From Planctomycetota bacterium (GTDB taxonomy: Bacteria; Planctomycetota; Phycisphaerae; UBA1845): a DNA stretch of 39,060 nt. This document shows, piece by piece, positions 1,947 to 36,646 of this stretch. How positions within the stretch are numbered: the stretch's first letter is position 1; every line of letters begins with the position of its first letter. The stretch is from assembly GCA_024280855.1 (NCBI GenBank), contig JAJRPG010000091.1, positions 1 through 39,060 on the forward strand, given 5' to 3'. The position numbers were made by a program, and so were the translations under genes. A model generated the notes under the pieces. The model did no database searches. It saw only the letters and a program-made list of their open reading frames with translations, and had not been told where the DNA came from.

Positions 1947-2447
1947 TCAGCGCAATTCTGAAATAGGGTCGGTCACAGCGACGGCTAGACGAACTACGCC
2001 GTCCTTGCGAATCAGGCCACTGGGGCGTCCGATGGATGATAGTGTGTCCACTAGCTCGCGATCATTAACATAATAGTGAGAAAGGTCTCCAGCAGGATGC
2101 GCGATCATCGCAGCTACGGCTTCGGGGCGCGTTTGCATAATCTGAATACGCGAAATGAATTCATTTTTTTCAGTTTTATTGCTTACAGTCAAAACAACCG
2201 GCGCATGAACCGCAGGCCTCGTCGCCACGAACGTTACGCCGACACCAATCATCACCATTGCCAACGACGCACTACGCATGACGTTACGTCTCACACGCCG
2301 CCGACGCCCTTCCCCAACGACCGCACCTTGCAATTCAACTAACAGCGCATCTCGGCGCGAACGACCTAGTTCAGACAGCATAAGGTCGTCATTTCCATCA
2401 GCGTAGTTAGTCCCGAATCTGTTTTCATTCCCAATTTTACTCATCAT
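1947..2447 (-). CDS. Putative single-pass anti-sigma factor
   Basis: About 166 aa. The N-terminal ~55 residues are charged and cytoplasmic, followed by an Arg-rich stretch, one membrane segment (about residues 60-80) and a ~85-residue C-terminal part predicted outside the membrane. No zinc-finger HxxxCxxC anti-sigma motif is visible, so the call rests on topology and position. The gene overlaps the end of the ECF sigma gene by 11 bp. ATG 2447 is preferred over the upstream TTG at 2450 because a GAG-type ribosome site sits in the end of the sigma gene. The extracytoplasmic tail contains YYVNDRELVDTL and a VVRLAVAVTDP segment, suggesting a small beta-rich sensor domain. Inferred role: membrane sequestration of the sigma factor. 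A simple envelope protein of unknown role is the alternative. Confidence 0.6.
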   Translation of the reverse strand: MMSKIGNENRFGTNYADGNDDLMLSELGRSRRDALLVELQGAVVGEGRRRRVRRNVMRSASLAMVMIGVGVTFVATRPAVHAPVVLTVSNKTEKNEFISRIQIMQTRPEAVAAMIAHPAGDLSHYYVNDRELVDTLSSIGRPSGLIRKDGVVRLAVAVTDPISELR

Positions 2448-3039
2448 CAATCTCTTTCATTCGTCGCCGCAGCGCTTTCATCGAACGATGCAGCCGAGAG
2501 TGAACAGCACCAGTTGATAAACCGAGTCGTTCGCCAATCGCTTTCAACGTCAGGTCTGCATAAAAACGCAACTCGATAATACCCGCGCCGACACGATCCA
2601 GGCCCGAAAGTTCTCGACGTATCCGCGCGACTTTTTCGCTCACATCTTCGATGCGCTCTTGCGCCACTTGAAAACGACCGTTCATCGAGGCGAGTTCTCT
2701 CATCCGTCGCCGACGATCACGTTTTAGATAATCCAACGCTACGTTTATCGCGATTCGTGCCAACCAACTATCGAGTGCCTTCTCATCCTCGAATGGCTTC
2801 ATGTATCGCACGACACGCATCATCGCATCCTGCACCATATCCAACGACGCCTGCTCATCGAATCGGGTTGTCGTTCGCACCACGCGCAGCACAAAATCGA
2901 ACTTAGCCTTATATATACGGGCAAACGCCTCAGGATCACCTGAAGCGATAGCCGTTGTCAGTCTGTGAATATGATCCACGTCCTGATTACTTTCATTAGC
3001 GATCGTCACGCAATCCTGCGCGACCTCGACAACTGTCAT
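2437..3039 (-). CDS. ECF-type RNA polymerase sigma factor
   Basis: 200-aa sigma-70 family protein with only regions 2 and 4. Region 2 (about residues 33-108) shows the DPEAFARIYKAKFDFVLRVV helix and the LDSWLARIAINVALDYLKRDRRRR segment typical of ECF 2.3/2.4. Region 4 (about 140-195) has the helix-turn-helix LTLKAIGERLGLSTGAVHSR, followed by a basic LHRSMKALRRRM tail. It is the middle gene of a three-gene operon. Its ATG overlaps the stop of the upstream exported protein as ATGA (3036-3039), and its end overlaps the putative anti-sigma gene, so the three are translationally coupled. Its regulon is unknown; autoregulation of the operon is likely for this class but is not shown by the sequence. 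Confidence 0.93.
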   Translation of the reverse strand: MTVVEVAQDCVTIANESNQDVDHIHRLTTAIASGDPEAFARIYKAKFDFVLRVVRTTTRFDEQASLDMVQDAMMRVVRYMKPFEDEKALDSWLARIAINVALDYLKRDRRRRMRELASMNGRFQVAQERIEDVSEKVARIRRELSGLDRVGAGIIELRFYADLTLKAIGERLGLSTGAVHSRLHRSMKALRRRMKEIDDE

Positions 3040-3965
3040 AAGTTCGACCCGGTAAGCTCTGCAAGTACATCCTGGGCTTTCTTCAATTGTTCGTTGATCC
3101 GTTTCAAACGATCATTTGCAAGATCATATTGCGCCTGGGCACGTTTGACATCACTCTTGAGTTCGATCATGTCGCTCCGATACTCTGGCTTATCTGATCC
3201 CTCTTCATCAAGTACCACTTTTGCTTCTGCTAATGCAGCATCCGCGTTTATCTTAGCTGTCATACCTTCTTGCAGCTGATCCATTAATTTTTTAATAGTC
3301 AACCTCAGTTTGAGGATACGATGCTGCTTTTTCTCCTCACTTTGAATAAGTTGGTCAATAACTTGTTGAACCAAGCCCAATTGCTCTTTCGTCCCGCGTG
3401 CGATTAATAACTTCGTAGCCGGATGAAACTTGATCTCAGCCTTACCAGAAAATAATGACTGTACAACATCGATAGCGCCAAGTACCTCACTTTCAGATTG
3501 TCCTTCAAATAACTCTGTCAAACTCCAAACCGACGACGCGATACGACTGAACTTGTAAAACCTTAGCGCCACTTTGAACACCATGTCAGGCGAAGCACCA
3601 ATTCTATAAGCCTCAACGTCGGCCCCCACTTTGCGACCGCTGGGCATTGTGTACATACCCTCCAACAAGCGAACCGCCGCTTCCACCGTTACCGAAACCA
3701 GCGAGACTGGCGGAACCTCTAATTCTTTCGCACTGGACATCACGACAATGTTAGCCGTCCCCTTAGGGCAAGAGCGACGAATGGTTTCTACGTAATCGAT
3801 GAGTTTCCCACCAGCAAAATCCACATCAAGTCGGGCCGCCGGTCGCTTCTGCGCTTCCTTTACTTCCTTGGTCTCTGCTTGTGCCAACACCTTATCAACT
3901 TGGCCAGCAATCAATGTCAACACCATCGTCGTTCCAATCAGCAAGCGAAACCGTCCTCGTATCAT
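3036..3965 (-). CDS. Exported protein with secretin-N/STN-like modules and C-terminal coiled coil
   Basis: About 309 aa with a signal peptide (basic MIRGRFR, hydrophobic core, possible cleavage after VLA). Residues ~45-110 have a beta-alpha-beta pattern (LDVDFAGGKLIDYVETI, then IVVMSS, then VSLVSVTVEAAVRLLEG) resembling the STN/secretin N-terminal domain. Residues ~180-205 (ATKLLIARGTKEQLGLVQQV) match the secretin_N signature of a recurring 'N-x-L-I-V-x-G' strand followed by a helix. The last ~90 residues are a charged, probably coiled-coil helix. There is no secretin pore domain. ATG 3965 is preceded by GGAG eight nucleotides upstream. It is the first gene of the sigma/anti-sigma operon and overlaps sigma by ATGA, so it may be the envelope signal or target of the sigma system. 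That role is inference. Confidence 0.6.
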   Translation of the reverse strand: MIRGRFRLLIGTTMVLTLIAGQVDKVLAQAETKEVKEAQKRPAARLDVDFAGGKLIDYVETIRRSCPKGTANIVVMSSAKELEVPPVSLVSVTVEAAVRLLEGMYTMPSGRKVGADVEAYRIGASPDMVFKVALRFYKFSRIASSVWSLTELFEGQSESEVLGAIDVVQSLFSGKAEIKFHPATKLLIARGTKEQLGLVQQVIDQLIQSEEKKQHRILKLRLTIKKLMDQLQEGMTAKINADAALAEAKVVLDEEGSDKPEYRSDMIELKSDVKRAQAQYDLANDRLKRINEQLKKAQDVLAELTGSNL

Positions 3966-4089
3966 CAATTTTCTCCATCGTTAAGATAGTATGCAACAAA
4001 TAACCAACCGCCTCACCTACTTAAACGCCGCCCAAGCTGATTTTTCCTTCTTTCTGCACTTATTTTTCATACGACGCCTCGCACAGGAT

Positions 4090-6197: not shown

Positions 6198-9119
6198 CTA
6201 TACGCTCAACTTATCCGCAATCCACTGCTTAGCATGAACCAACGCTTTAGTCACCCCAGCCGGGTCACTCCCACCACCCTGAGCCATGTCTGGCCTGCCA
6301 CCACCTCGACCACCCACGAGCGGCGCAATCTCTTTTATTAAATCACCAGCCTTGACGCCTTTTCCCACGACAACCTTGCTCATCCCGGCGAGAAGTGTCA
6401 CCTTGTCGTCATCAACCGATACCAACAACACAGCCGAGGCGTCCGTCTTGTTACGAACCCAATCAATCGCACCACGCAGGGCATCACTCTTAGCTGAGGG
6501 GACTTCGCCAACGACAACCTTTACATCACCAACGACCGTAGCCTCATCAAGTAGCGCAGCCACTTTCTCTTGAACCTCGCCGGCAGAAGCGGAGTCAGCC
6601 TCTTTATCCTGCTTTTTAGCGACCTTTTGCAGCTTTGCGATCTTGTCGAGGATTAGCCTTCGCTTGCTCAATGGAATGATGGAAGTATTTATCCGGTTTT
6701 GAATATCAGAAATACACACAGACATAGACTCGGGGGTTGATTTACTATCGCAAGTCCGCGCGGGCTGAAGCCCGCGGCTCGATAAGACATCAATTTCCAA
6801 CTCAAACGCCTCGCCCGTTGCCACAGCCTGGTTAGCGACGTCGCCCGTCACACCCACCAGCCGGCGAATGCCCTTAGCTACGCCCTCCTCAGCCGTAATC
6901 ACCAACCGCCCCGCTTCCTTACTTGTCTTGAGATGAGTCCCACCGCAAAACTCCACGGAATACTTCATCCACTTAGCATCAGCCGGGTTAGCCAGCATTT
7001 CGTCGATGTCCGCGCCAACAGAAACCACACGAACCTTATCAGGATACTTTTCACCAAATACTGCCCGTAGCGTATTAATCTTACGAGCCGCCTCTTGACC
7101 TACTTCTTTAGTATATACGCAATGGTCAGCCTTGATCTGCTCGTTACACAAGCCGTCAACCCGTGCCAACTCCTCGTCAGTCAGCGGCTTATTATGAGAA
7201 AAATCAAAGCGAGTCTTCTCCGGATCAACCAATGAACCTTTCTGCTGAATGTGATCCCCCAACACGGCCCGCAACGCCCAGTTCAAAATATGCGTACTGG
7301 TGTGGTTCTGCATGATGGGAATGCGGCGATTGCGATCGACGATGACCTTAACACCCTGAGTAAAATCTGGTTTGGCATGTTGATGCAATTCTCCCGAAAT
7401 ACACTTGCCGTGATGGATAAAATATTCGCTTTTTTCAACAACCGCCTTGACCTGAAAGATGCCCGAATCGCACTCGATGGTACCTTGGTCGCTGACTTGT
7501 CCGCCCTTCTCAGCGTAAAAAGGAGTCGCCACTAGAATCAAAGCGCCAGATTCGCCATTCTTTATAATAGGTTTAGAGCCAGATCCGATTATGATGTCAA
7601 AAATCTCGGACTGCAATTCTAAATTATCGTAACCTACAAAACCGTAATTATTATTCGAGTCTGGTCCTAATACATATGAAGTACCTATAAATGTCGCGGT
7701 GTAACGATTTAATCCTGCTGCAGGCTTGTTCCGCGCCTTCTCCCGCGCCACTTCCATCAATCTTTCATACTCACCAATATCAACCGTAAGCCCTTGCTCC
7801 TCAGCCATGAGTTCTGTCAGGTCGATCGGAAAACCGTAGGTGTCATGCAGTTTGAAAGCATCTTCACCACTCACCCTGCCATGATGATGCTTGCGCGAAT
7901 ACTCCGCAGCTTCATTGAAAAGCTTAATGCCACGATCAAGCGTTTTACCAAACGATTCTTCCTCATCACGAAGAATCTCCGCAATATAAGCCACGTTATC
8001 TCGCGGCCGAGCTGCATCCGGGCCATTACGCAGTTCCGGGAAAACATCCCCCATGTGCGCGACCAATGGCTCAACAAGATCACAAAGAAACGGTTCGTGC
8101 ATATTGAGATATTGTCGGCCATAGCGCACCGCCCGGCGAAGAATCCGCCGCAGCACATAGCCTCTCCCCTCGTTGCTTGGCATTGCGCCGTCGGTAATCG
8201 CAAACGTCAGGCAACGAACGTGGTCAGCCATGACTCGATAAGTCACGTCCACCATAAGCTGCTGAGTCTCCGATGCCCCCGGCAACAGTCCCGTATACGC
8301 CGGCGCACCAGTTCGCTTTTGTATCGCGTCAAAAATCGGCGTAAAAACATCTGTATCATAATTGCTCGACTTGCCCTGCAAGAGCGCACAAAGCCGCTCG
8401 AACCCCATCCCCGTATCCACATGCTTCGCGGGCAGCGGCGACAATTTTCCATCCGTCGCCCGATTAAATTGGATAAACACGAGATTCCAAATTTCAATCA
8501 CTCGCGCATCCCCCGCGTTCACCAGCGAGGCCCCGCTTTTGTCGGGTGTAATATCAACATGAATCTCACTGCAAGGCCCGCAAGGGCCTGTCTCACCCAT
8601 CTCCCAAAAATTATCCTTCTTATTGCCGGTGTGAATATGCGTCGGGTCGATGTCCGTCTCGCTCTTCCAAAGCTCAGCCGCCTCCGTATCAGGCTCAAGC
8701 CCCTCAGCCTTGTCACCCTCAAAATAGGTCACATGAAGTCGAGACTTATCAATCCCCCAAACCTCGGTCAACAATTCCCACGCCCACGCGATAGCTTCCT
8801 TCTTGAAATAATCGCCGAAGGACCAGTTCCCCAGCATCTCGAAAAACGTGTGGTGATAAGTATCCTGCCCGACATCGTCGAGGTCGTTATGCTTCCCACC
8901 CGCCCGGATGCACTTCTGCGTATCAGCCGCCCGCTTATAATCTCGCGTCCCCGTCGCCAGGAACACATCCTTAAACTGGTTCATCCCCGCATTGGTAAAT
9001 AGCAGCGTCGGGTCATCGTGCGGAACCACCGGCGAGGACTCAACAATTTCGTGGGCCTTACCGCGAAAAAAGTCGAGAAATTCCTGTCGTATCTGATTAG
9101 CTGTCAATTTAGAGGGCAT
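6198..9119 (-). CDS. alaS: Alanyl-tRNA synthetase
   Basis: Charges tRNA-Ala with alanine in the cytoplasm and edits Ser/Gly-tRNA-Ala. 973 aa, about 100 longer than common bacterial AlaS. The class II catalytic domain occupies the first ~460 residues (TNAGMNQFK at 42-50, TGPCGPCSEIHVD near 177-189, LRRILRRAVRYG near 323-334). The editing domain has the zinc/active-site residues HTSTH (606-610) and C725GGTH729. The C-Ala domain ends with GGRGGGRPDMAQGGG. Residues ~780-789 (SSRGLQPART) are encoded by a 27-bp palindromic repeat sitting in frame in the linker before the coiled coil, a region that is variable in the family. All catalytic motifs are intact, so the enzyme should work. The gene is monocistronic, with repeat-rich DNA upstream. 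Confidence 0.97.
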   Translation of the reverse strand: MPSKLTANQIRQEFLDFFRGKAHEIVESSPVVPHDDPTLLFTNAGMNQFKDVFLATGTRDYKRAADTQKCIRAGGKHNDLDDVGQDTYHHTFFEMLGNWSFGDYFKKEAIAWAWELLTEVWGIDKSRLHVTYFEGDKAEGLEPDTEAAELWKSETDIDPTHIHTGNKKDNFWEMGETGPCGPCSEIHVDITPDKSGASLVNAGDARVIEIWNLVFIQFNRATDGKLSPLPAKHVDTGMGFERLCALLQGKSSNYDTDVFTPIFDAIQKRTGAPAYTGLLPGASETQQLMVDVTYRVMADHVRCLTFAITDGAMPSNEGRGYVLRRILRRAVRYGRQYLNMHEPFLCDLVEPLVAHMGDVFPELRNGPDAARPRDNVAYIAEILRDEEESFGKTLDRGIKLFNEAAEYSRKHHHGRVSGEDAFKLHDTYGFPIDLTELMAEEQGLTVDIGEYERLMEVAREKARNKPAAGLNRYTATFIGTSYVLGPDSNNNYGFVGYDNLELQSEIFDIIIGSGSKPIIKNGESGALILVATPFYAEKGGQVSDQGTIECDSGIFQVKAVVEKSEYFIHHGKCISGELHQHAKPDFTQGVKVIVDRNRRIPIMQNHTSTHILNWALRAVLGDHIQQKGSLVDPEKTRFDFSHNKPLTDEELARVDGLCNEQIKADHCVYTKEVGQEAARKINTLRAVFGEKYPDKVRVVSVGADIDEMLANPADAKWMKYSVEFCGGTHLKTSKEAGRLVITAEEGVAKGIRRLVGVTGDVANQAVATGEAFELEIDVLSSRGLQPARTCDSKSTPESMSVCISDIQNRINTSIIPLSKRRLILDKIAKLQKVAKKQDKEADSASAGEVQEKVAALLDEATVVGDVKVVVGEVPSAKSDALRGAIDWVRNKTDASAVLLVSVDDDKVTLLAGMSKVVVGKGVKAGDLIKEIAPLVGGRGGGRPDMAQGGGSDPAGVTKALVHAKQWIADKLSV
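6755..6781 (-). repeat. 27-bp palindromic repeat inside alaS (in frame)
   Basis: GC-rich palindrome with a TTCA/TGAA loop. Its reverse complement is identical over all 27 bp to 13396-13422 at the end of the O-antigen polymerase gene. Being 27 bp long it adds nine codons (read as ...SRGLQPAR...) without disturbing the frame. Confidence 0.9.
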
Positions 9120-25252: not shown

Positions 25253-26163
25253 AGTCCTGTCGCTACGGCTTCCTGGCCTACTGGTTCCCATACTTCAATT
25301 TCTCGTTCAAGTGTGATGCCATGATGGTCCAAGACGCGCTGTCCAATGACATCCATCAGTGAGAGTATGTCTGCGGCGGTAGCTTCTTGTGAGGCGACGA
25401 TAAAGTTGGCATGTCGATCTGAAACCACCGCTCCGCCGACGCGCGTTCCTTTCAGTCCGGCGGAGTCGATTAACTGTCCGGCTTTGTGACCAGTCGGGTT
25501 TTTGAAAATGCAGCCTGCACTTTTATCTGCGAGTGGTTGGGACTGCTGCTTTTGCTGGAACAATTTTTCATACCTGCTGGCTACTTTTTTGGGATCGTCC
25601 GCGTCAAACTCCAGCTCTGCAACTAATAGAACTTGGCAGGTGATCGCACTTGATCTATATCCGAGCATCAGGCGGTCAACAGGCCAGGTGTCGATGGTTC
25701 CGTCTGGATTTACGAGCGTGACATTACGGACGATGGCCCCAATTTCGCCCGCGCTACCGCCTGCATTCATGCGAATCGCGCCGCCGATAGTGGCGGGGAC
25801 GCCGGCTAGGCACTCTAAACCGGTTAGGCCTAGCTCACTGCATTTGCGAGAAAAGGGCATGAGGTCTACGCCGCAGCCGACCTGAGCGGTGGTCGCCTGC
25901 CAGGAGACGGTGCGAAAGGTGGGATGATTCAACTTGATGACTATGCCATCGAATCCGGCGTCGCTGACTAAAACATTCGCTCCCGCGCCGAGTACACGGA
26001 CAGGGACGCCTTCCTCATGAGCGCGTTTTATCGCAAGCGTCAAGCACAAGACACTGTTGGGTCGAAACAAAAAACGCGCACAGCCCCCCACGCGAAACCA
26101 GGTGAGCGTACTCAGCGGCGCATGATGCTCGATATTATTCTCGAATTCTTGCCACCAATTCAT
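25249..26163 (-). CDS. murB: UDP-N-acetylmuramate dehydrogenase (UDP-N-acetylenolpyruvoylglucosamine reductase)
   Basis: FAD/NADPH enzyme reducing UDP-GlcNAc-enolpyruvate to UDP-MurNAc. 304 aa. FAD-binding motifs are TWFRVGG, then VRVLGAGANVLVSD and LAGVPATIGGAIRMNAGG. SAGCIFKNP carries Cys where many type II MurB enzymes have the proton-donating Ser, a substitution known in several lineages. The C-terminal Glu is in LEREIEVW. The 5' end overlaps the murC 3' end by 29 bp and the 3' end overlaps ddl by ATGA, so the block murC-murB-ddl is translationally coupled. Confidence 0.96.
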   Translation of the reverse strand: MNWWQEFENNIEHHAPLSTLTWFRVGGCARFLFRPNSVLCLTLAIKRAHEEGVPVRVLGAGANVLVSDAGFDGIVIKLNHPTFRTVSWQATTAQVGCGVDLMPFSRKCSELGLTGLECLAGVPATIGGAIRMNAGGSAGEIGAIVRNVTLVNPDGTIDTWPVDRLMLGYRSSAITCQVLLVAELEFDADDPKKVASRYEKLFQQKQQSQPLADKSAGCIFKNPTGHKAGQLIDSAGLKGTRVGGAVVSDRHANFIVASQEATAADILSLMDVIGQRVLDHHGITLEREIEVWEPVGQEAVATGL

Positions 26164-27565
26164 CAGTTACATTCCAAATGTCTCCGGCTCCCATCGTGAC
26201 GACAACATCGCCTTGGGTTAGCAGAGGAAGTATTTTTTCAACTATCGCTTCCATCGCGGCGATGTATTGTGCCCGGCCTCCCTGGTCGCAAATGCGTGAG
26301 ACTAAATCCTGCGAACTGATGGCTTCGCTGTCGTCTGAGGCTTCGCGTGCGCCGTAAATATCGGGGATGATAATTTCGTCGGCGTCTGAGAATGCTGAGG
26401 CAAAATCGTCTAAGAAAAAACGTGTCCGCGCATGTTGGTGAGGCTGAAAAATCACCCATAACCTTTTGGGCTGATATTGCTTGCGAATGGCGTCGAGCGT
26501 GACACGAATTTCTGTGGGGTGATGGGCGTAATCATCCACGACTGTTATGCCGGACCATTGGCCTCGATGGGTTAAGCGGCGACCTATGCCTGCAAACTTT
26601 GGTAACGCTTCGGCGAGCGCCGCTGGTTCAGCGCCAGCGTAATGGGCGAGGGCAATCGCAGCTAAGGCGTTGGACACGTTATATTTTCCGGGTACGGTTA
26701 GATGAGTCGAGAAAAGTAGCTCTTTTCGATAAACAACATCAAACGAATAGCAGGCTTTGTCAGCCAACAGATTTTTCACTTGCCAATCGGCGGAATCGTT
26801 TTCAATGCTTAGCGTAATGACTTCCGCTGAGACTTCTGCCACGGCTTGCAAGGCTAGTTGATTGTCAGCATTTACAAATACGACGCCGTCAGATGGTACA
26901 TTTGAAGCAAAGGCGGCGAAGGCTTCGACGACGTTTTCGATGGAACCAAAATAGTCGAGATGGTCAGGCTCGATGTTTAGAATAGCGGCGGCTTGTGGAT
27001 GAAGATGTAAAAAGGAGCGATCATATTCACACGACTCCACAACAAAATGGTCGCCGCTGCCAGCTGCGCTGCTTCCGCCTAGTTGTTCGGAAGTTGCGCC
27101 AACCACAAACGAAGGGGCCAATCCAACTTCTCGCATAAGGAAAGCACACATCGCGGTCGTGGTAGATTTTCCGTGCGTACCCGCGATAGCTAATCCTTGG
27201 CGATATCGCATTAGCTCACCGAGCAGTTGGGCGTATTTAATGACGGGGATGTCTAGTTGGCGGGCTTCAGCAAGTTCGGGGTTGGTTTCGGGAACGGCGG
27301 CGCTAATGACGACGAGGTCTGTGCGCGGGATGACATGGTCAGCGTTATGGCCAATGAAAATGCAGGCGCCTGCCTGGACGAGTTTGCCCATGCCTTCGAA
27401 GGGAACGAGGTCTGACCCTGCGACCTTAGCTCCGAGGTCTAGTAACATGCGGGCTGCCCCGCACATGCCTGCGCCACCGACGCCTACCAAATGGACATTA
27501 GCCCCTTCGAGGCGCAGTTCACGCGATGCGGTTTGAATTCGTGGCTGCTGTACACAAACGGTCAT
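26135..27565 (-). CDS. murC: UDP-N-acetylmuramate--L-alanine ligase
   Basis: Adds L-Ala to UDP-MurNAc. 476 aa with the full Mur ligase layout: N-terminal Rossmann domain VHLVGVGGAGMCGAA (about residues 24-38), ATP loop AGTHGKSTTT (about 128-137), the central ESCEYDRSFLHLHP and IEPDHLDYFG, and the C-terminal DDYAHHPTEIRVTL plus QPHQHARTR typical of MurC. The start ATG has GAGAGAAC upstream. murG precedes it with a 56-nt gap and murB overlaps its end. Confidence 0.98.
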   Translation of the reverse strand: MTVCVQQPRIQTASRELRLEGANVHLVGVGGAGMCGAARMLLDLGAKVAGSDLVPFEGMGKLVQAGACIFIGHNADHVIPRTDLVVISAAVPETNPELAEARQLDIPVIKYAQLLGELMRYRQGLAIAGTHGKSTTTAMCAFLMREVGLAPSFVVGATSEQLGGSSAAGSGDHFVVESCEYDRSFLHLHPQAAAILNIEPDHLDYFGSIENVVEAFAAFASNVPSDGVVFVNADNQLALQAVAEVSAEVITLSIENDSADWQVKNLLADKACYSFDVVYRKELLFSTHLTVPGKYNVSNALAAIALAHYAGAEPAALAEALPKFAGIGRRLTHRGQWSGITVVDDYAHHPTEIRVTLDAIRKQYQPKRLWVIFQPHQHARTRFFLDDFASAFSDADEIIIPDIYGAREASDDSEAISSQDLVSRICDQGGRAQYIAAMEAIVEKILPLLTQGDVVVTMGAGDIWNVTDELVARIRE

Positions 27566-27621
27566 AACTGTTCTCTCTTAGAGACTTCACCCCTGTAGCA
27601 TTTCGTCGTCGCGTAATCGTC

Positions 27622-28806
27622 TTATCGTCCCATGCAAAAGTCTGGCTCCATTGATTCGTCTGCTGTTGCGTGGGTCTTACCATAAACAAGTGCGAGAATT
27701 TCCTTGGCAACCTCAGCAGCTGCATCTGGACGAGCGACCTCGCTGGTGGCCTGGGCCATGGCGGCTAGTTGCTTTTCGTCGTTCAATAAAGACATGAGAA
27801 TTTTTCGCATCGCAGGGGCGTTCTGCGAAACGTTTTTCATATCTTTCATGACTACAGCTGCACCATGCTGAGCCATCATTTCGGCGTTGGCTAATTGGTG
27901 CATGTCTTTATGAAACGGATAAGGCAGTAGCAGGGACGGGCAACCCATCGTAGCGAGTTCGGATAAGGTTGATGCCCCCGCGCGAGAAATCACCAACGCA
28001 GCAATGGACATCGCAGCAGACATCTGATGCGTGAATGGTAGCACCGAAGAGGCTATCTTTTGGCCTGTATACGCCTGTTTTACCGATTCGTAATCTAACT
28101 GACCCGCGAGGTGTAACACCTGCCATTGAGGCAGCATTTGAATGTCATCCAATAGTGCGATTACTGTTTGGTTGATGGTTCGAGCGCCTTGGGATGCGCC
28201 GGTGACAAGCAGGGTCTTTTTGTTGGGGTCAAGATTAAACCGTTCGTGGGCATCGACAAATTTATGATTTATAAACGCCTCTCGCACCGGGCAACCTGTG
28301 ACGCGGATGTTGGTTTTGGGCGGTAAGTGCTTGGTGGAATTTTCCCATTGCGTAAAGACGATGTTAGTCCGCTTGGCCAAATTTCGATTGGCACGACCTG
28401 GGAGAAGGTCTGGGTTTAATAGGGCCGTGGGAATCCCCATCTTCATCGCGAGGCGCATGGGCGGAACGGACCCCAGTCCGCCGGTTCCAATAATCATCGT
28501 GGGCTTGTCGCGGCTAAATCTTTTTTGGCATAATTTTTTAGATTTTCTGTAGCTTCGCATGATTCCCGGCCAGCGCCAGGGTGCGGTGCTGAGGGGGGAG
28601 AGTGATTGCTTTACTAAATCGTACCCAGCTTGGCCTATGATTTGCTGGTCGATAGGTCGGTCAGTGCCAAAGAACACGAACCTCGCATGTGGTAACTGAA
28701 GCTTCAACGCTTCAACTACGGCTAAGGCGGGGTATAAGTGCCCACCGGTTCCACCGCCGGCAAAGCCGATTAAAGGTGCGTCTGAAGTTCCAATAGATGA
28801 CACCAT
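27622..28806 (-). CDS. murG: UDP-GlcNAc:MurNAc-pentapeptide-PP-undecaprenol GlcNAc transferase
   Basis: GT28 enzyme making lipid II from lipid I on the inner face of the membrane. About 394 aa from ATG 28806; a GTG six codons upstream is less likely because GTGAGG there looks like the ribosome site. The N-terminal glycine loop is GGGTGGHLYPALA, with IGTGGLGSVPPMRLA, and the donor-binding domain has VTGASQGARTIN and ISRAGASTLSELATMGCPSLLLPYP followed by DMHQLANAE. It lies between ftsW (41-nt gap) and murC. Confidence 0.97.
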   Translation of the reverse strand: MVSSIGTSDAPLIGFAGGGTGGHLYPALAVVEALKLQLPHARFVFFGTDRPIDQQIIGQAGYDLVKQSLSPLSTAPWRWPGIMRSYRKSKKLCQKRFSRDKPTMIIGTGGLGSVPPMRLAMKMGIPTALLNPDLLPGRANRNLAKRTNIVFTQWENSTKHLPPKTNIRVTGCPVREAFINHKFVDAHERFNLDPNKKTLLVTGASQGARTINQTVIALLDDIQMLPQWQVLHLAGQLDYESVKQAYTGQKIASSVLPFTHQMSAAMSIAALVISRAGASTLSELATMGCPSLLLPYPFHKDMHQLANAEMMAQHGAAVVMKDMKNVSQNAPAMRKILMSLLNDEKQLAAMAQATSEVARPDAAAEVAKEILALVYGKTHATADESMEPDFCMGR

Positions 28807-28847
28807 ACTGACACAATACCTCACGCTGCTTACGCAGTTTTCGCCGC

Positions 28848-30038
28848 TTACGCTAGTTCCATATCTAAATCTTGCGCCGCTTCATTCATTTCCGTCGCAT
28901 GGGCTGATCGATAAGCGATAGCCATTAACAATCCGACTGCTAAAGAAAAGGCCACGATGCCGCTGCCCCCGGCTGATATAAAGGGTAACGAAATTCCCGT
29001 GGTGGGGGTGACGACTGTTACGACGGCGATGTTCATAGCTGCTTGCAGGCCTAGCGTTGTTGTTAATCCAAAGGCTAGTAATCGCTCGAACGAATTTACG
29101 GCTGACATGGTGATGCGCAGGCCTATCCAGACAAAGGTGCAGTATAGGGCGATGACAAACCATCCGCCGACGATTCCTGCTTCTTCGCAGATGACCGAGA
29201 AAATAAAATCTGTTTGACTTTCAGGTAAGTAGCCGTATTTCTGAATGCCCCCGCCAAGGCCTGTGCCTAGCCAACCGCCGGAGGTAATGGCTGTGAGTGA
29301 TTGGATGGGTTGATAGCCATGACCTTGCGGGTCTGCCCAGATGTTTAAGTATGAGGTTAGTCTAGCCAAGCGGTAAGGCTCGGCTTTTAGCAGGGCTGCC
29401 ATGCCGGCGGCACCGATGATAGCCACCAAGGCAAGGTGGGTGAGGCGACAGCCGCCGAGTAGTAACATGGCGCCGCCGACTAACGCGAACAAACACGCGG
29501 TGCCGAAATCCTCCTTGCCGACCAAGGCAACAAAAACGCCGACTGTGCTAGCTGCGGGTAAAAAGCCGTGAAGGAAGGAGCGTACATCAACTTTGCGACC
29601 AGCTAACAAATAGGCGAGGAAAATGATTAAAGATAATTTCGCTAATTCCGAAGGTTGAAACCCGACGGGGCCTAGACCTGTGGAGAGAGCAATCCAGCGG
29701 CTCGAGCCTCGACTCTGGGAAGCAAGGCCTGGCAATATCGCGAATAACAGGGCTAAGATGGCTAAAACAGCCGTGAAGTATGCGAACCATTTTCGCCGTG
29801 ATTGATTGGCGAATACGAATCGTCCTGTAAGCATAGCTAAGGCGATGGCGACTATCCCTAGCCCAACGAAGATGAGCTGTCGGAAAAATACGCCTTGCAT
29901 CGCAGGCATGATGGAGACTGTTGGGGCCAACGACGCCGTGGCGGAATAGACCATGACTACGCCCAGCGACATGAGGGCAATCGTGGTGGCGATTAGCCAG
30001 GAACCGCGCGACGAGGTGGGTTGCGATATATTATCCAT
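28848..30038 (-). CDS. ftsW: Septal peptidoglycan polymerase FtsW (SEDS family)
   Basis: Membrane glycosyltransferase polymerising lipid II, partnered with FtsI. 396 aa with about ten membrane helices. SEDS hallmarks: SSRWIALSTGLGPVGFQPSELAKL, the catalytic Asp in VGKEDFGTA (KED where QPD is usual), HGYQPIQSLTAITSGG, and SLPFISAGGSGIVA near the end. AAGGATGA lies a few bases upstream of the ATG. The 160-bp gap before it holds a degenerate palindrome (30131-30157). FtsW is preferred to RodA because of location in the dcw cluster next to mraY and murG. Confidence 0.95.
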   Translation of the reverse strand: MDNISQPTSSRGSWLIATTIALMSLGVVMVYSATASLAPTVSIMPAMQGVFFRQLIFVGLGIVAIALAMLTGRFVFANQSRRKWFAYFTAVLAILALLFAILPGLASQSRGSSRWIALSTGLGPVGFQPSELAKLSLIIFLAYLLAGRKVDVRSFLHGFLPAASTVGVFVALVGKEDFGTACLFALVGGAMLLLGGCRLTHLALVAIIGAAGMAALLKAEPYRLARLTSYLNIWADPQGHGYQPIQSLTAITSGGWLGTGLGGGIQKYGYLPESQTDFIFSVICEEAGIVGGWFVIALYCTFVWIGLRITMSAVNSFERLLAFGLTTTLGLQAAMNIAVVTVVTPTTGISLPFISAGGSGIVAFSLAVGLLMAIAYRSAHATEMNEAAQDLDMELA

Positions 30039-30130
30039 CAGCAGTCATCCTTGACGTTTGAGACGAATCTTTGATAACTTACGGTCAGCGTGGCACGATA
30101 GTATTTTGAATGTGCGATTATCATCGTAAC

Positions 30131-30157
30131 TCCGCGCAAGCTGAAGCATGCGGCTCG
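30131..30157 (-). repeat. Degenerate copy of the 27-bp palindrome between mraY and ftsW
   Basis: Matches the alaS copy at 23 of 27 positions, in the same orientation. Differences are in the inner stem, so the hairpin is weaker. It is the only copy here that lies outside a coding frame. Confidence 0.65.
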
Positions 30158-30198
30158 ATTACGTTCATTAAAACTCGTCACAGCTTGCGTTCCTTTTA

Positions 30199-31344
30199 CT
30201 AACGAAGTTTCAGTGTGGCTAATGCCAATCCGGCGAACATGGACGCGACTAACCAAAATCTGACCACGGTTTGAGGCTCACTCCACCCGCTCAGGTGGAA
30301 ATGGTGATGGATAGGGGCACAGCGATACAAACGCTTGCCGCCGGTCCATTTGAAATAGCCTACCTGGGTGATGACGGAAATCGCCTCAATGACAAAAACG
30401 CCGCCAGCAATGAGTAACATTAACTCTTGCCTGGTAACGACAGCGACGAAACCGATTAGCCCACCAAGCGGCAATGAGCCTGTATCACCCATGAAAACGC
30501 GCGCAGGGTGACAATTGTACCAAAGGAATCCTAACGTAGCGCCCAAGATAGCCCCGCAGAGAATGACCAATTCTCCGCTACGAGGGATGTGCGGTACTAG
30601 AATTTTATGAGCAAGTTCCTGGGTTCCTACGATGTAAGTTAAGACCATGAAAAACAACGCAGCCATCGCGACGCATCCGGCGGCGAGTCCGTCCATCCCG
30701 TCGGTTAAATTTACCGCGTTGGATGTTCCGGTCATGACTAATACGGTAACTATCATAAAAGCAAATGTGCCCAAAGCTAAGCCTTGTTTGTAAAAAGGCA
30801 CGGCTAGGATTTTATATGCGGGCACGGACATAGGGTCGACGAGCGGGTTGATCGTAGCCATGTTGTTTCGGCCGTAGGAGTAAATGTAAAACCCTATCAC
30901 TACCCCTAAGCCGATTTGAAACAGCAGCTTTTCGTACATTTTCAGACCGTCGCGAGAAGAAATCTGCCGCCTTTTCGCCGTGAGCTTTAGCCAATCGTCT
31001 ACGGCGCCTAACGCGCATAGCCAAATCAAGCAGACGATTGACATTTGTACATAAAAACTGGAAATATCCGCTAATAATACGACGGCGAGTAGTACGACGG
31101 ATAAAAGAAAAATCCCGCCCATAGTCGGCACGTTACTCTTGTCTCGCGTTAGTTCATTCAACGTGGCGTGGTCGTACTCTGGTCGGTCGCCTAATTTCCA
31201 CTTGACTAACACACGAATGAAACGCGGTAGAAATAATAAAATAGTAACGAAACAAAAGAGCGCTGCACACGTTCCGCGAAAGAGCGTGTTTTCGTAGGCG
31301 TAATGTTGCCCATCTAGAAAATGTCGAAATAATAAATATAGCAC
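30199..31344 (-). CDS. mraY: Phospho-N-acetylmuramoyl-pentapeptide transferase
   Basis: Integral membrane enzyme making lipid I from UDP-MurNAc-pentapeptide and undecaprenyl phosphate. 381 aa with about ten helices. Signature motifs: KSNVPTMGGIF, GAVDDWLKL (catalytic Asp pair), AVNLTDGMDGLA, RVFMGDTGSLPLGG and the HHHFHLSGWSE loop. It starts at GTG 31344; no ATG is available before the first helix and no strong ribosome site is seen, so translation may be modest. murF precedes by 64 nt. Confidence 0.97.
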   Translation of the reverse strand: MLYLLFRHFLDGQHYAYENTLFRGTCAALFCFVTILLFLPRFIRVLVKWKLGDRPEYDHATLNELTRDKSNVPTMGGIFLLSVVLLAVVLLADISSFYVQMSIVCLIWLCALGAVDDWLKLTAKRRQISSRDGLKMYEKLLFQIGLGVVIGFYIYSYGRNNMATINPLVDPMSVPAYKILAVPFYKQGLALGTFAFMIVTVLVMTGTSNAVNLTDGMDGLAAGCVAMAALFFMVLTYIVGTQELAHKILVPHIPRSGELVILCGAILGATLGFLWYNCHPARVFMGDTGSLPLGGLIGFVAVVTRQELMLLIAGGVFVIEAISVITQVGYFKWTGGKRLYRCAPIHHHFHLSGWSEPQTVVRFWLVASMFAGLALATLKLR

Positions 31345-31408
31345 GTTGGCGCTTTGCCCGTTTCAAAAAAAGCATAGCTTCAGCTACGCATCATAACCCA
31401 CTTACAAA

Positions 31409-32815
31409 TCATGCTACCGCTATTGGCTGATGCCATTGTTCGCGTAGCGGTTCTACTAACTTATCAAGTCCTACTGCCCTGGAGCCTTTAATCCAAACCA
31501 AGTCGCCCGCACGCAGCAATCCGCGCAGCGCCGCAGCCGCTAATGTGGCATCCTGACAAGCGATAACCCGCATATCGCCGGTTAACCCAGCCGTTGCGAT
31601 GGATGCCTCCACGGCTAATTCGCCCACCACGACCAACAAGTGAATGCCAGCGTCGGCGGCTTGGCGTACCATTTGCTCATGGTAATCGGCGCTATCTTGG
31701 CCAAGCTCTCGCATGTCGCCCATAACGAAAACCCGCCGATTACAATCAGCCAATGACATCGACGCAATCGCCGCAGCCATGCTTGATGGATTGGCGTTGT
31801 ACGAATCGTCCACCATCGTCACCTGTCCGGCTTCGACCACGCGACATCGACCGCTAGCTGGTCTGTAGCTGGCCAGTCGTAAAATAATATGGGCAGGGTC
31901 CAGGCCAAACCATCGCGCGACGGCAAAAGTAGCGGCGGCGTTGGTGGCGTGATGTCCGCCGGGCATAGCTAATTCAATACGATGCTGACGGTCTAACGTG
32001 AAGGTACTTCGTCGAACCGAATCGGTCATCGCCTGAATCTGAAGTTCGGCGGCTTCATCGAAGCCAAAGGTCATCAGCCGAAGTCGCTCCAAACGTCGAA
32101 GCCGGTCCGGCGTCACTGGCCCATCTATGTTTATGACCCCCATGCCGCCGCGACGCACATGGTCGAACATGGAAAATTTTTCGGTGGTGATGCCTTCTAT
32201 CCCGCCAAGACCTTCCAAATGGGCAAAGCCGATTGACGTAAGCACGCCAATGTCGGGCTTAGCCATCGCGGAGAGCGCCGCGACTTCGCCGGGGCTATTG
32301 GTGCCGATTTCGATGACGAGGTATCTATCTTGAGCTTCTGCGCTGAGTAAGGTTAGCGGTACGCCGATATGATTGTTGAAACTTTTCAGCGCCGCTCTTC
32401 CGGGCATCGCATCGCCGAGAACGTGGTCGATCATTCTCTTGGTAGTAGTCTTGCCGTTGCTGCCAGTAATCGCGATGACCACTGTGGTAGGCGTCATGAC
32501 CTCGCTGCGGTAATATGTAGCTAGTGTTCCGAGTGTCGCAGTGGTGTCATCGACAAGCAAACAGGGGGCTTTCGGTTTTTCTAATTGCTTATGATACCAC
32601 GCCTCAGTTACCAGGCACGCGGCTGCGCCTTTCTCGATGGCTTGTAATACAAAATCGTGGCCATCAAATCGTTGCCCGTCGATAGCTACGAAAAGATCGC
32701 CAGTTTGCACATCGCGCGAATCAATGGTGACGCGGGTTACAATCACAGACTCGCATCCGGCAGGCGGTGTCGTATCAACGCCGAGGGCAACGGTGGCAAC
32801 GGGCATCGCAATCAT
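31409..32815 (-). CDS. murF: UDP-MurNAc-tripeptide--D-Ala-D-Ala ligase
   Basis: Adds D-Ala-D-Ala to the stem tripeptide. About 468 aa from ATG 32815, which overlaps the murE stop as ATGA; the longer frame to 32869 runs into murE. Motifs: TIDSRDVQTGDLFVAI, ATP loop AITGSNGKTTTK, NNHIGVPLTLL, VIEIGTNSPGE and VDDSYNANPSSM, all characteristic of MurF. It depends on Ddl for substrate, which makes the broken ddl frame notable. Confidence 0.97.
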   Translation of the reverse strand: MIAMPVATVALGVDTTPPAGCESVIVTRVTIDSRDVQTGDLFVAIDGQRFDGHDFVLQAIEKGAAACLVTEAWYHKQLEKPKAPCLLVDDTTATLGTLATYYRSEVMTPTTVVIAITGSNGKTTTKRMIDHVLGDAMPGRAALKSFNNHIGVPLTLLSAEAQDRYLVIEIGTNSPGEVAALSAMAKPDIGVLTSIGFAHLEGLGGIEGITTEKFSMFDHVRRGGMGVINIDGPVTPDRLRRLERLRLMTFGFDEAAELQIQAMTDSVRRSTFTLDRQHRIELAMPGGHHATNAAATFAVARWFGLDPAHIILRLASYRPASGRCRVVEAGQVTMVDDSYNANPSSMAAAIASMSLADCNRRVFVMGDMRELGQDSADYHEQMVRQAADAGIHLLVVVGELAVEASIATAGLTGDMRVIACQDATLAAAALRGLLRAGDLVWIKGSRAVGLDKLVEPLREQWHQPIAVA

Positions 32816-34341
32816 GCCACGTCCTCCGTGACCGGCGTCTTTGTTGGCGTTGTGGCTGAAGGTAGGCAAGCCTGCGCGACAGTCGCATCGTCGAATGCCA
32901 GAACCTTGTCACCAACGAGTTGATAATCTTCGTGACCTTTGCCAGCTATGAGTACCGTGTCTCCCGGATTGGCTAACTCGATAGCTAACTCAATCGCGAG
33001 GCGACGGTCTTGTTGCACTGATACGGACTGGCGTTGACTGCTATCAAACCCCGTCAATACATCTTCGATAATAGCCAAGGGGTCTTCATGACGCGGATTG
33101 TCGCTAGTTACAATAACATGGCTAGCAAACTCCGCAGCCGCCGCAGCCATGCGTGGCCGTTTGCTACGGTCACGATCTCCGCCGCAACCAAACACACATA
33201 TCAAACGGTTTTTCGTGAGCGGTTTTACTGCACGCAACACATGACGAAGCGCGTCGTCGGTGTGAGCGTAATCGACCAAGACACTAAATGGATAACCATC
33301 AGGCTCAATACGTTGTAATCGGCCTGGAACCATCGGAATACGCGACAAACCTTCAGCAATAGCAGCGCCATCTACGCCTAACGCTTCCGCGATCGCCCCG
33401 GCGAACATGGCGTTGAACACGTTATGCTCACCCAACAGTGCCAGGTTGATGTCTGCTTCAAAACCTTGGCCATGCAAAACAAATCGGCTACCGCTCGACG
33501 TCATGCCATTTATTGTCGCGAGCACGTCCGCATCCTTGTCGCATAAGCTAACATGTATCACGCGGGCCTGGCAATCTTGAACCATCATCGCCGAATAGGG
33601 ATCGTCTGCATTGACCACTGCTACCGCAGAAGGAGACAGTTGATCGAACAGCCGTTTCTTAGCGGCCGCGTAACTAGCCATGTCGGTATGAAAATCTAAA
33701 TGATCGCCGGATAAATTCGTGAAGCCAGCCACTTGAAAAGACAGCCCATCAGTGCGCCGCTGCTCAAGCGCGTGCGACGATACTTCCAACACAGCTACAT
33801 CAGCGCCGCGCGAACGCGATAAACTTAGCAAGCGACACAACTCTGAAGCGCCGGGAGTCGTTAACGGCGCTTTAACACATTCGTCAACGAGATCGTATTC
33901 TATCGTACCAAAGGTGGCAGGTCGCCGGTGGGCCGCCTTGAAAATTGAGCGGAGAAGCCACGCGACGGTGGTCTTGCCGTTGGTCCCTGTAATGCCTACG
34001 AGTGGAAAATTTTCTCGCGCGTCATCAAGACCGTAAAACGACGTAGCTAACTTGGCTAAGGCGGTGCGCGAATCCTCCACGCGAATCGTTGCGACATTTT
34101 CCGGACATGAAAACTCATCCTCAGAAATAATCGCCACCGCACCGTTGCCGATGGCTGACTCTAGGTAGCGATGTCCGTCAGTAGCACAGCCTCGCACCGC
34201 AACGAAACATGAGCCGGGTTTAACAAGACGAGAATCATCGACTAATGAGGTGATAACTATATCGGGAATGGAAGACGCATCCACATAGACACCAGCCTTG
34301 GCGAACAGTTGCGATAAAGATTGTGTCGTTTGCTCATCCAT
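32812..34341 (-). CDS. murE: UDP-MurNAc-L-Ala-D-Glu--2,6-diaminopimelate ligase
   Basis: Adds the third stem-peptide residue. 509 aa. N-terminal VDDSRLVKPGSCFVAVRG, ATP loop VGITGTNGKTTVAW (about residues 115-128), TTPGASELCRLL, FTNLSGDHLDFH and YAAAKKRLF (carbamylated Lys region). The SDNPRHEDP segment near residue 415 is the DNPR motif selective for meso-diaminopimelate, so the wall is predicted to be DAP-type. It follows ftsI after a 259-bp gap containing two palindromes, which may be an internal regulatory point of the cluster. Confidence 0.97.
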   Translation of the reverse strand: MDEQTTQSLSQLFAKAGVYVDASSIPDIVITSLVDDSRLVKPGSCFVAVRGCATDGHRYLESAIGNGAVAIISEDEFSCPENVATIRVEDSRTALAKLATSFYGLDDARENFPLVGITGTNGKTTVAWLLRSIFKAAHRRPATFGTIEYDLVDECVKAPLTTPGASELCRLLSLSRSRGADVAVLEVSSHALEQRRTDGLSFQVAGFTNLSGDHLDFHTDMASYAAAKKRLFDQLSPSAVAVVNADDPYSAMMVQDCQARVIHVSLCDKDADVLATINGMTSSGSRFVLHGQGFEADINLALLGEHNVFNAMFAGAIAEALGVDGAAIAEGLSRIPMVPGRLQRIEPDGYPFSVLVDYAHTDDALRHVLRAVKPLTKNRLICVFGCGGDRDRSKRPRMAAAAAEFASHVIVTSDNPRHEDPLAIIEDVLTGFDSSQRQSVSVQQDRRLAIELAIELANPGDTVLIAGKGHEDYQLVGDKVLAFDDATVAQACLPSATTPTKTPVTEDVA

Positions 34342-34396
34342 GAGTTCGGTCGATCGCGTTATCGCTCAAGTTCAATTTTCTGAAGTCGCTCAATAT

Positions 34397-34429
34397 CACG
34401 GGTAAGCTATATCGCATACCCATGCCACC
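34397..34429. repeat. TGGCATGGGTA...TACCCGTG palindromic repeat, copy 3 (reverse orientation)
   Basis: Reverse-complement copy of the repeat at 10080 and 16864, with a longer loop, in the ftsI-murE gap about 55 bases before the murE start codon. It may affect transcription through the cluster. Confidence 0.6.
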
Positions 34430-34564
34430 CATCATCTAATCAGTCACCTCGTCCCAGCAGCTGATTTTAGTGATGCTTAGCCATCTGTCATGGCTCACCC
34501 GCCAAGTTCTGTCAGCGATTGAATCCTGACTGCACTTATTATTTTCACTCTGCCACCCTTAATC

Positions 34565-34586
34565 TGTGATTTTCGAGAAAATCACA
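34565..34586. promoter_or_regulatory. Perfect 10-bp dyad after ftsI (operator- or terminator-like)
   Basis: TGTGATTTTC and GAAAATCACA are separated by two bases, beginning 15 bases after the ftsI stop. Such a compact dyad could bind a dimeric regulator; TGTGA/TCACA recalls CRP-type half-sites, but the spacing differs. No T-tract is present. Confidence 0.4.
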
Positions 34587-34600
34587 CCATCGCTTCGACG

Positions 34601-36328
34601 CTAGTTCCTTGTACCGTCAGCGATTACGTCATCTCGCGGAACATCCATGTAGGCTAGCGTCCGCGACATAATGCGTGCGGCTGCCGGCGCCGAAATTTTC
34701 CCGCCATAATAGCCTTTTTTGGCATCGGGCCTGCGGATCATCACGAGTACGACAATTCTAGGAGCCTCAACCGGCGCCGCCCCGACGAATGCGCCCATGT
34801 ATGCGCCGGGTTCATATTTTCTTCGATCTTTATATGTGAGCTTGGCCGTCCCCGTTTTCCCTGCCACCGCATAGCCGGGAATTTTCGCCCTGCGCCCGCC
34901 GCCATGGGTCACGACTGAACGCATCAAATCTTTGGTGAGGTAGTTGGCGACTTCTTCGCTCACGACGCGACGTACAACTTCCGGCTTATCATACGACGTA
35001 ACGACCTGGCCATCGGGACCAACTATGGCTTTGACCACATGAGGCTTGAGCAGCCAACCGTCGTTAAACAGCGCCGCAAAACTCGTGATTAATTGGATGG
35101 GGGTCACGGAAATTTCGTAGCCAAAAGATACCGAAGCCGTGGACATATTTGTCCACTTCTTTAACGGGCGAACCAAGCCTCGATTTTCTCCTGGGCATTC
35201 GATGCCGGTTAGCGCACCAAAGCCGAAGCGTCTAATCGTCTCGTGAAGCATCGGATTGCCCATTCGTGTGGCGATGATGCTCATGCCTATGTTGCTACTG
35301 TGCGTGATGATGCCGCGAATGTCTAAATCTGCGAATGGTTTCGAATCTATAATCCTGCGAGAGCCGATGCGGTAGATGCCGTTATGGGTGTTGATGCGTT
35401 CGGTTCTGCTCACGAATTTTCCAGCTAACGCTTCACTAGCGATGATCGGCTTGAAGGTGCTGCCGGGTTCGGTGGGGTCAGTCACACAGCGGTTGCGACG
35501 GTCGCCGCTGGGGCTTGAGCCTGGGTCGCGTGGATCAAAAGTCGGCACCGAACACATAGCCAGGACTGATGCGTTGGTCGGGTCCATGACAATAGCTATT
35601 CCAGACTCCGCCGAAAATTCTGCGATGCTATCAGCTAATGACTCCTCCGTGATGCGCTGAATCTCAGCGTCGAGCGTAAGTACTATATGGTTGCCATCAA
35701 TGGGTGGCTGAGGTGCGGCATCGCCGTAACGCAATGCCCGTCGCCGAGCATCACGAACGGTTAGACGTTTTCCATTTTTACCTGCGAGTTGATCGTTAAA
35801 GGCAAGCTCCAAACCTTCCTGCCCATTGCCTTCTCGCCCCACAAAGCCCAGCACATGAGCCATGGATTCGCCAAGCGGATAATCTCTGACCTCCTGATCG
35901 ACCAAACCTACGGATGATAAATGCAACTCTTTCACCGCATCCGCTGTGATGTGGTCCACGCGCCTAGCTATGGTGATAAATCTCGATTTAGGCTTATCTT
36001 TAAGCTTTTTTTCAATCCTGTCAGCCGAGAGGTTAAGCCTTGAGGCAAGCACTTCTGCTACTTTTTTACGATCCTTAACGAGGGCCGCATCAACAAATAC
36101 ATCGGGCATACGGCGAGAGGTAGCAAGCACTCGGCCTCGACAATCTAAAATGGAACCTCGGCGGGCAGGAATGACGGACCTTCCGGCACGCTGCTTGTGT
36201 GAAGATGCCAGAAGCTTGACACTATAAGTAGCTTTGACATAGGCAAGTCGTCCACCAAGTGCGACAAGTACGGCCATCACACAAGAGAGCAGCACGATAG
36301 CCAATGTTCGCTGTCGTTGATCTGACAT
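34601..36328 (-). CDS. ftsI: Class B penicillin-binding protein, septal transpeptidase FtsI
   Basis: Crosslinks septal peptidoglycan, paired with FtsW. About 575 aa from ATG 36328, which has AGGTGG just upstream. One N-terminal helix (about residues 9-30), PBP dimerisation domain (PARRGSILDCRGRVLA, then DYPLGESMAHVLGFVG), then the transpeptidase domain with SxxK as STFK (about 290), SSN (about 344) and KTGT (about 491). No PASTA repeats. It follows the ftsL-like gene by 24 bp. Confidence 0.95.
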   Translation of the reverse strand: MSDQRQRTLAIVLLSCVMAVLVALGGRLAYVKATYSVKLLASSHKQRAGRSVIPARRGSILDCRGRVLATSRRMPDVFVDAALVKDRKKVAEVLASRLNLSADRIEKKLKDKPKSRFITIARRVDHITADAVKELHLSSVGLVDQEVRDYPLGESMAHVLGFVGREGNGQEGLELAFNDQLAGKNGKRLTVRDARRRALRYGDAAPQPPIDGNHIVLTLDAEIQRITEESLADSIAEFSAESGIAIVMDPTNASVLAMCSVPTFDPRDPGSSPSGDRRNRCVTDPTEPGSTFKPIIASEALAGKFVSRTERINTHNGIYRIGSRRIIDSKPFADLDIRGIITHSSNIGMSIIATRMGNPMLHETIRRFGFGALTGIECPGENRGLVRPLKKWTNMSTASVSFGYEISVTPIQLITSFAALFNDGWLLKPHVVKAIVGPDGQVVTSYDKPEVVRRVVSEEVANYLTKDLMRSVVTHGGGRRAKIPGYAVAGKTGTAKLTYKDRRKYEPGAYMGAFVGAAPVEAPRIVVLVMIRRPDAKKGYYGGKISAPAAARIMSRTLAYMDVPRDDVIADGTRN

Positions 36329-36352
36329 GCCCACCTTTTCGTAAAAGAAATA

Positions 36353-36646
36353 TCAACCCCTTGGCGGATTGAGGACCATTCGCGTCGATGATTTTTCAAC
36401 GCCATTTTCATGCGGTGGCACAAGCGTGTCGTGAAACCAGCCTACACGATGATACACCCGCATCGGAGATTTTAGTCGCGCGACCCGTGCCTGCACCTGC
36501 CATAACTCGCGACGAAGCGATACCCAGTGCGACTCAAATTCTAACACGCGCACCGCTGTCGATGCCTGGGCCTGTCGCATGACAACGACCCCCAAGGCCA
36601 TCGCAGCTAACAACACGATGAATACGCATGTACGAAACGGCGTCAA
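36353..36646 (-). CDS. FtsL-like division protein
   Basis: 97 aa, bitopic: short cytoplasmic head, one membrane helix (about residues 7-24, CVFIVLLAAMALGVVVM), then a periplasmic helix of heptad character (VRVLEFESHWVSLRRELWQVQARVARL) and a proline-rich tail. FtsL is poorly conserved, so the call rests on size, topology and its place immediately before ftsI. The start overlaps the stop of the LysM gene as ATGA. Expected partners are FtsQ and the FtsW/FtsI pair. No gene symbol is given because similarity is too weak to be sure. Confidence 0.62.
   Translation of the reverse strand: MTPFRTCVFIVLLAAMALGVVVMRQAQASTAVRVLEFESHWVSLRRELWQVQARVARLKSPMRVYHRVGWFHDTLVPPHENGVEKSSTRMVLNPPRG

Follow-up and report, generated by a model that had tools for sequence, protein, structure and literature searches.

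What would an exported, secretin-like protein do in one operon with a sigma factor and a small membrane protein? The question is posed by three minus-strand genes, here called A, S and N, in the window, that is, the whole 39,060-nucleotide stretch of planctomycete DNA that was analyzed. The window is the entire contig C4 of its assembly (4.56 Mb, 112 contigs); G, C and L numbers below are our handles for genomes, contigs and loci. The open reading frames, strand and coordinates match those described in an earlier, sequence-only reading of this DNA:

3965-3036, minus strand: gene A, 309 aa, predicted to be exported, with an STN/N0-like module, an N1-like module and a C-terminal helical hairpin
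3039-2437, minus strand: gene S, 200 aa, ECF sigma factor
2447-1947, minus strand: gene N, 166 aa, single-pass membrane protein, probable anti-sigma

The overlaps claimed in that reading are confirmed by the open reading frames. A and S share 4 bp (ATGA), and S and N share 11 bp counted from the ATG of N, or 14 bp should N begin at the TTG further upstream, at 2450; gene calls were made with simple ORF scripts, and start positions are thus approximate. A fixed ratio of the three products may be inferred from these overlaps. Chance open reading frames were rejected on grounds of conservation, as the same three genes recur in the same order in other families and classes.

Judged by its sequence, S is an ECF sigma factor, with region 2 (residues 48-111) and region 4 (residues 153-191) contained within a short protein. 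The respective Pfam matches are Sigma70_r2 (4e-10) and Sigma70_r4 (2e-12), and the NCBIfam sigma70-ECF model is matched at 1.3e-23 with 83.5 bits against a cut-off of 42.9 bits.

The identity of N is less immediate. Neither Pfam nor NCBIfam searches matched N to a known anti-sigma family, and searches of solved-structure sequences and of PDB folds returned no match. FecR-type domains are likewise absent from N and its 22 homologues, none of the 23 rows having a Pfam match at E 0.01. The sequence-only reading had remarked that N lacks the usual zinc motif, and this extends to the family: N has no Cys and therefore no zinc anti-sigma motif, and HxxxCxxC occurs in 0/23 N rows (alignment A2). A zinc-binding anti-sigma (ZAS) identity was rejected on this absence from the window N and all 23 rows. 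A transmembrane-like stretch is retained in 23/23 rows, flanked by two conserved segments:

2277-2372, minus strand: N cytosolic helix, residues 26-57, conserved, with an Arg cluster at its end; candidate sigma-binding segment
2217-2276, minus strand: N transmembrane helix, residues 58-77 (hydrophobic stretch 56-80)
1977-2069, minus strand: N periplasmic helix plus beta-hairpin module, residues 127-157, conserved; candidate contact for A

Position, topology and the conserved cytosolic helix together make N a probable anti-sigma. The periplasmic module follows the consensus DDxxLLxxLxxxGRPAGLIRxGGxVxL and resembles, by eye, the second half of an STN domain; profile comparison lends this no support, and a profile-profile comparison of the periplasmic end of N with A detected no sequence relation.

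The architecture of A was delineated by combining sequence, alignment and a predicted structure:

3882-3965, minus strand: A predicted signal peptide, residues 1-28, with a VLA-Q site at 26-29, assigned by eye and hydropathy
3648-3833, minus strand: A STN/N0-like domain, residues 45-106, from the AF2 model, Foldseek and alignment
3390-3638, minus strand: A Secretin_N/N1-like domain, residues 110-192, from Pfam, the AF2 model, Foldseek and alignment
3048-3389, minus strand: A helical hairpin (coiled coil), residues 193-306, poorly conserved in sequence

The Ala-Gln cleavage-like site recurs in most A homologues. The one Pfam match of A is to Secretin_N (E 1.2e-5, 25.9 bits, slightly below the 28.2-bit cut-off). 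The Secretin pore domain PF00263 is not matched by A at E 1 nor found among the Pfam families listed at E 0.01 for 27 rows of homologues, and Pfam STN is matched neither by A nor, at E 0.01, by any of those 27 rows. An AF2 model of A, for which ten family homologues served as input, reached a pLDDT of 78.5 and is confident except for the first 42 residues. It comprises a beta-alpha-beta-beta-alpha-beta block (residues 46-106), a second sheet-and-helix block (residues 112-192), and two long helices spanning 193-306, the last agreeing with the coiled coil that the sequence-only reading had anticipated. Foldseek placed the N0-N1 regions of MxiD, EscC, GspD and XcpQ at the top (E 1e-3 to 1e-2, probability ~1), and ranks 1-12 were all taken by secretin entries, from type II, III and IV systems, the best of them with E 9.7e-4. 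TM-scores were low, not exceeding 0.42 (by target) in the N0-N1 rows, and the VIA-align list was filled by the helical part of A and excludes no family; the fold call therefore rests on Foldseek together with secondary structure. Profile comparisons did not pick up the relation: A against the STN secretin of its own genome gave a probability of 0.7%, and no secretin came up when PDB sequences were searched with a profile.

Taken together, A likely adopts the secretin N0-N1 (STN/N0 plus N1) fold, as predicted by modeling, without the pore that defines a secretin, in keeping with the earlier suggestion of an exported protein with STN/secretin-N-like modules and no pore. In ten family rows, F50, G52 and G53 of the STN/N0-like domain and H181, T184, I188, A189 and G191 of the N1-like domain are invariant; homologues preserve the STN and N1 cores but not the coiled coil. 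The possibility that A is a secretin gene fragment or pseudogene was rejected, as A is a single intact copy in its own genome, with a constrained core. A few homologues (L026, L035) seem, by eye, to carry two STN-like copies.

The sequence-only reading had named two outcomes that would count against it, an unrelated fold of A and a gene order confined to this strain. The predicted fold is of the kind it proposed, and the order holds phylum-wide, with S following A in 70 of 79 A copies. The distribution of A itself is patchy but wide, as sequence searches place it in 3/3 genus genomes, 10/51 family genomes, 22/392 genomes of a phylum sample and, at E 1e-4, 61/397 class genomes. The 79 copies comprise 10 from the family, 21 from the phylum sample (own genome excluded), 12 further class loci and 36 in 34 class regions, and A is followed by S in 8/10, 21/21, 12/12 and 29/36 of these, respectively. 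Downstream S and N were recognized at E limits of 1e-3 (phylum sample and further class loci) or 1e-2 (class regions). The 79 do not include L022, which matches through its coiled coil only, repeat entries for one and the same locus, or the weak matches G333, G364:C47 and four lying in frames longer than 3,500 aa. Four of the remaining A copies lie at contig ends (G009, G020, G603 and the second copy of G669, cut by the contig start), one is joined to the remnant of a sigma gene and followed by N, a decaying cassette (G657, L194), and four stand alone with no S downstream (G697, the second copy of G710, G746:C91 and G736); A may therefore act without S. These standalone homologues are loci L178, L185, L190 and L193, and G746 has five A-type matches.

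A profile-recognized N follows S in 67 of the 70 A-S loci. The three others are G031, which meets a contig end; G473, where N is unrecognized and the S match is weak (1e-7); and G236, where a 163-aa single-pass ORF occupies the position of N and overlaps S by 8 bp. Searching the 51 family genomes with N alone, all ten matches with E < 1e-20 adjoin S. Three of these have no A in view: two are contig breaks (G025 and one G020 fragment), and the third, in G004 (L117), pairs N with a short truncated S and no A beside a seryl-tRNA-synthetase-like ORF (by eye), a decaying cassette. The S/N overlap is 8 or 11 bp in all seven family loci showing both genes. A-S(-N) coupling is kept among very diverged loci, with 18-59% identity to A (alignment A3), and only G236 has an extra gene inside the operon.

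The genes around the cassette are unrelated between loci, except for release-factor and alaS genes that recur at a few, and the cassette is therefore free-standing. Neighboring genes were rejected as functional partners, since at most 4 of 72 neighbor proteins share a family. In the window, a serine-hydrolase/beta-lactamase-family gene (725-1924) is convergent with N, and alaS (6198-9119) lies near A; in G002, alaS is directly upstream of A.

The DNA preceding A, where the sequence-only reading had proposed looking for a promoter motif of the sigma factor, contains such a candidate:

4023-4047, minus strand: promoter-like motif GGAAAAATCAGCTTGGGCGGCGTTT, upstream of A

A family motif, GAAA(A/T)-N12..14-NCGT(A/T)(C/T), is present in 10/10 A upstream regions at 74-107 bases from the A start, with a 13-base spacer in nine family loci and a 14-base spacer in L002. 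First-order shuffles gave 0.08 expected occurrences, a figure that is a guide only, because the ten regions scored are also those from which the relaxed motif was built. Beyond the family the motif occurs in 8/68 upstream regions against 0.4 expected, and either the motif or its spacing therefore drifts. Elsewhere, where the sequence-only reading had also proposed looking for the motif, no second conserved target emerged in the three genus genomes. A strict motif gave 22 matches in 17 of the 51 family genomes, five of them at the operon, against six for a reversed control pattern. The relaxed motif gave 63 sites in the three genus genomes, 50 of them within ORFs of at least 150 aa; that pattern misses the G002 operon, which has a 14-base spacer. 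Besides the A operon, this relaxed scan placed no promoter-like site before an orthologous gene in two of the three genus genomes. One motif sequence is identical in two genomes (L237, L259), at distances of 49 and 31 bp from the integrase-like ORFs (by eye) that follow it, and may not be a promoter; we have not taken it as one. At L234 (G000:C6:15370-15394), the relaxed motif precedes a gene whose 489-aa product is, judged by eye, exported and peptidase-like, a site absent from the other two genus genomes in the relaxed scan. As read from these sequence patterns, the simplest account is probably autoregulation with a small regulon; S may have additional targets that are dispersed and not conserved.

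Which known systems does this arrangement resemble? The closest precedent is PUMA3 (VreA-VreI-VreR) of P. aeruginosa, in which VreA is a mostly soluble STN protein with no barrel, vreA and vreI overlap by 4 bp, the receptor, sigma and regulator genes are clustered, and overexpression of the sigma factor raises expression of its own cluster (PMC2729926). Our trio shares the barrel-less STN-type protein, the 4-bp overlap with the sigma gene and the clustering. The second domain of VreA is TolA/TonB-like, whereas A carries N1 plus a coiled coil, and the PUMA3 regulator gene seems to be a separate transcription unit, whereas N overlaps S here. Unlike a PUMA3-type regulator, N matches no FecR-type family model. 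In FoxR and PupR, the STN-like periplasmic end of the anti-sigma pairs with the STN domain of the receptor (PMC11637429). The FecA-FecR-FecI and FoxA-FoxR systems of cell-surface signaling (CSS) have in common with the trio a periplasmic STN-fold module, a single-pass anti-sigma and an ECF sigma factor; they differ from it in possessing a TonB-dependent barrel receptor and FecR domains, and where the FecR-type periplasmic end is a beta-solenoid plus an STN-like domain, that of N is ~30 conserved residues.

The link to FecA-type signaling drawn in the sequence-only reading is an analogy; a free-standing STN protein beside a sigma/anti-sigma pair has a precedent in VreA. A predicted STN-fold periplasmic module does lie beside sigma and regulator genes, with Pfam STN itself unmatched, and classical FecA signaling was rejected: the single PF07660 (STN) match in the own genome is in a secretin, not in a TonB receptor, and N has no FecR-type Pfam domains. 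We hold with moderate confidence, by analogy, that the cassette works like PUMA3 and CSS while falling outside FecA/FecR-type membership by sequence. With the secretins (GspD, XcpQ, MxiD and PilQ) A has in common the predicted N0-N1 fold and a weak Secretin_N match, and it differs from them in lacking a pore domain, in its size of ~310 aa and in its coiled-coil end. CnrY-CnrX-CnrH of Cupriavidus combines a periplasmic sensor, a very short single-pass anti-sigma and an ECF sigma factor, a three-protein layout like the present one; CnrX, a helical sensor of metals, is anchored in the membrane, unlike A, which is predicted to be soluble and secretin-like.

A model for the cassette can be proposed, and we consider it somewhat better than an even bet: the trio would be a self-contained, probably autoregulated envelope signaling cassette, with A as a soluble periplasmic partner that resembles a secretin fragment. 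It probably carries a signal from the cell envelope to genes. Because of the PUMA3 and FoxR/PupR parallels, A is proposed, by analogy, as the periplasmic partner of N, either activating or guarding it. N would retain S at the membrane via its short cytosolic helix, and A, once exported to the periplasm, would dock through its STN/N1 module onto the small helix-hairpin conserved in the periplasmic part of N, standing in for the STN domain of a receptor that is absent. A change in A, or a competitor for it (a secretin, the inner-membrane platform of a secretin, or some other protein of the envelope), would act as the trigger that alters N, such that N is cut or releases S; the freed S would then transcribe its own operon and all three proteins would be reset together. 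Conservation falls where this mechanism requires it, in the STN/N1 core of A and in the cytosolic helix and periplasmic module of N.

Another possible role of A is that of a guard like RseB, in which A would shield the periplasmic end of N from proteolysis until titrated off by misfolded or mislocalized envelope proteins. The signal-peptide-like N-terminus of A and its place in the same operon fit such a guard, and in CSS the signal-free receptor binds the anti-sigma and protects it from proteolysis (PMC11637429). Pfam, however, returned no RseB or RseA domain match, and we regard this account, which differs from the preferred signaling cassette in sign only, as unlikely. To be placed no higher is the proposal that A is a product rather than a sensor, an N0-N1 coiled-coil protein acting on a secretin or envelope structure whose synthesis S and N control while sensing by other means. 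The position of A as first gene after the promoter-like motif and its four copies without S would suit a product; against this, even strongly diverged loci keep the A-S(-N) coupling, with an extra gene in G236 only, and the arrangement matches that of a known receptor-sigma-regulator system.

Less probable still is that a domesticated secretin fragment, A, competes with a real secretin for the type II secretion (T2SS) platform, so that S would read assembly failure. The predicted N0-N1 fold of A is consistent with this, as are the T2SS operon with a giant secretin in the own genome and the hxc T2SS genes in the PUMA3 regulon (PMC2729926). The extra gene between A and S in the distant genome G236 encodes a coiled-coil protein that includes a GspG domain (T2SSG, E 2.7e-24), a hint that comes from this one locus, whereas the genus scan placed no T2SS gene behind the promoter motif and the neighbors of the cassette are unrelated. 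The G236 protein (L204/L225) has a lipoprotein-like N-terminus by eye and is the sole direct hint at type II secretion. The T2SS operon of the own genome lies on C26 at ~25298-36613 (L106, L291), where F, G, K, PilM-like and M-like genes are followed by a giant pair. Its first member, of 3,018 aa, consists mostly of Secretin_N repeats (22 matches in its frame), and its second, of 1,522 aa, is a secretin that combines 11 repeat matches with the pore. Weak matches to the A profile, in its N1 and coiled-coil part, come from frames of 3,569-4,278 aa in G485, G416, G738 and G756, and such giants may therefore be class-wide.

No description of the A-S-N combination was found in the open-licence PMC literature. 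Work on STN-type signaling to sigma factors has, to our knowledge, centered almost entirely on TonB receptors from Proteobacteria and Bacteroidetes. By analogy, and with moderate confidence, we view the cassette as receptor-less STN-type signaling to an ECF sigma factor through a minimal regulator, in planctomycetes, with VreA as its precedent. Were the type II secretion account true, the sigma factor would read the assembly of a secretion machine across the envelope, here one with a giant N-domain-repeat secretin. If the preferred signaling cassette is borne out, the STN/anti-sigma partnership would exist without a receptor, in a phylum-wide planctomycete cassette that would provide a small three-protein system for solving the STN/anti-sigma contact and a handle on envelope signaling in bacteria with many ECF sigma factors and few known regulators.
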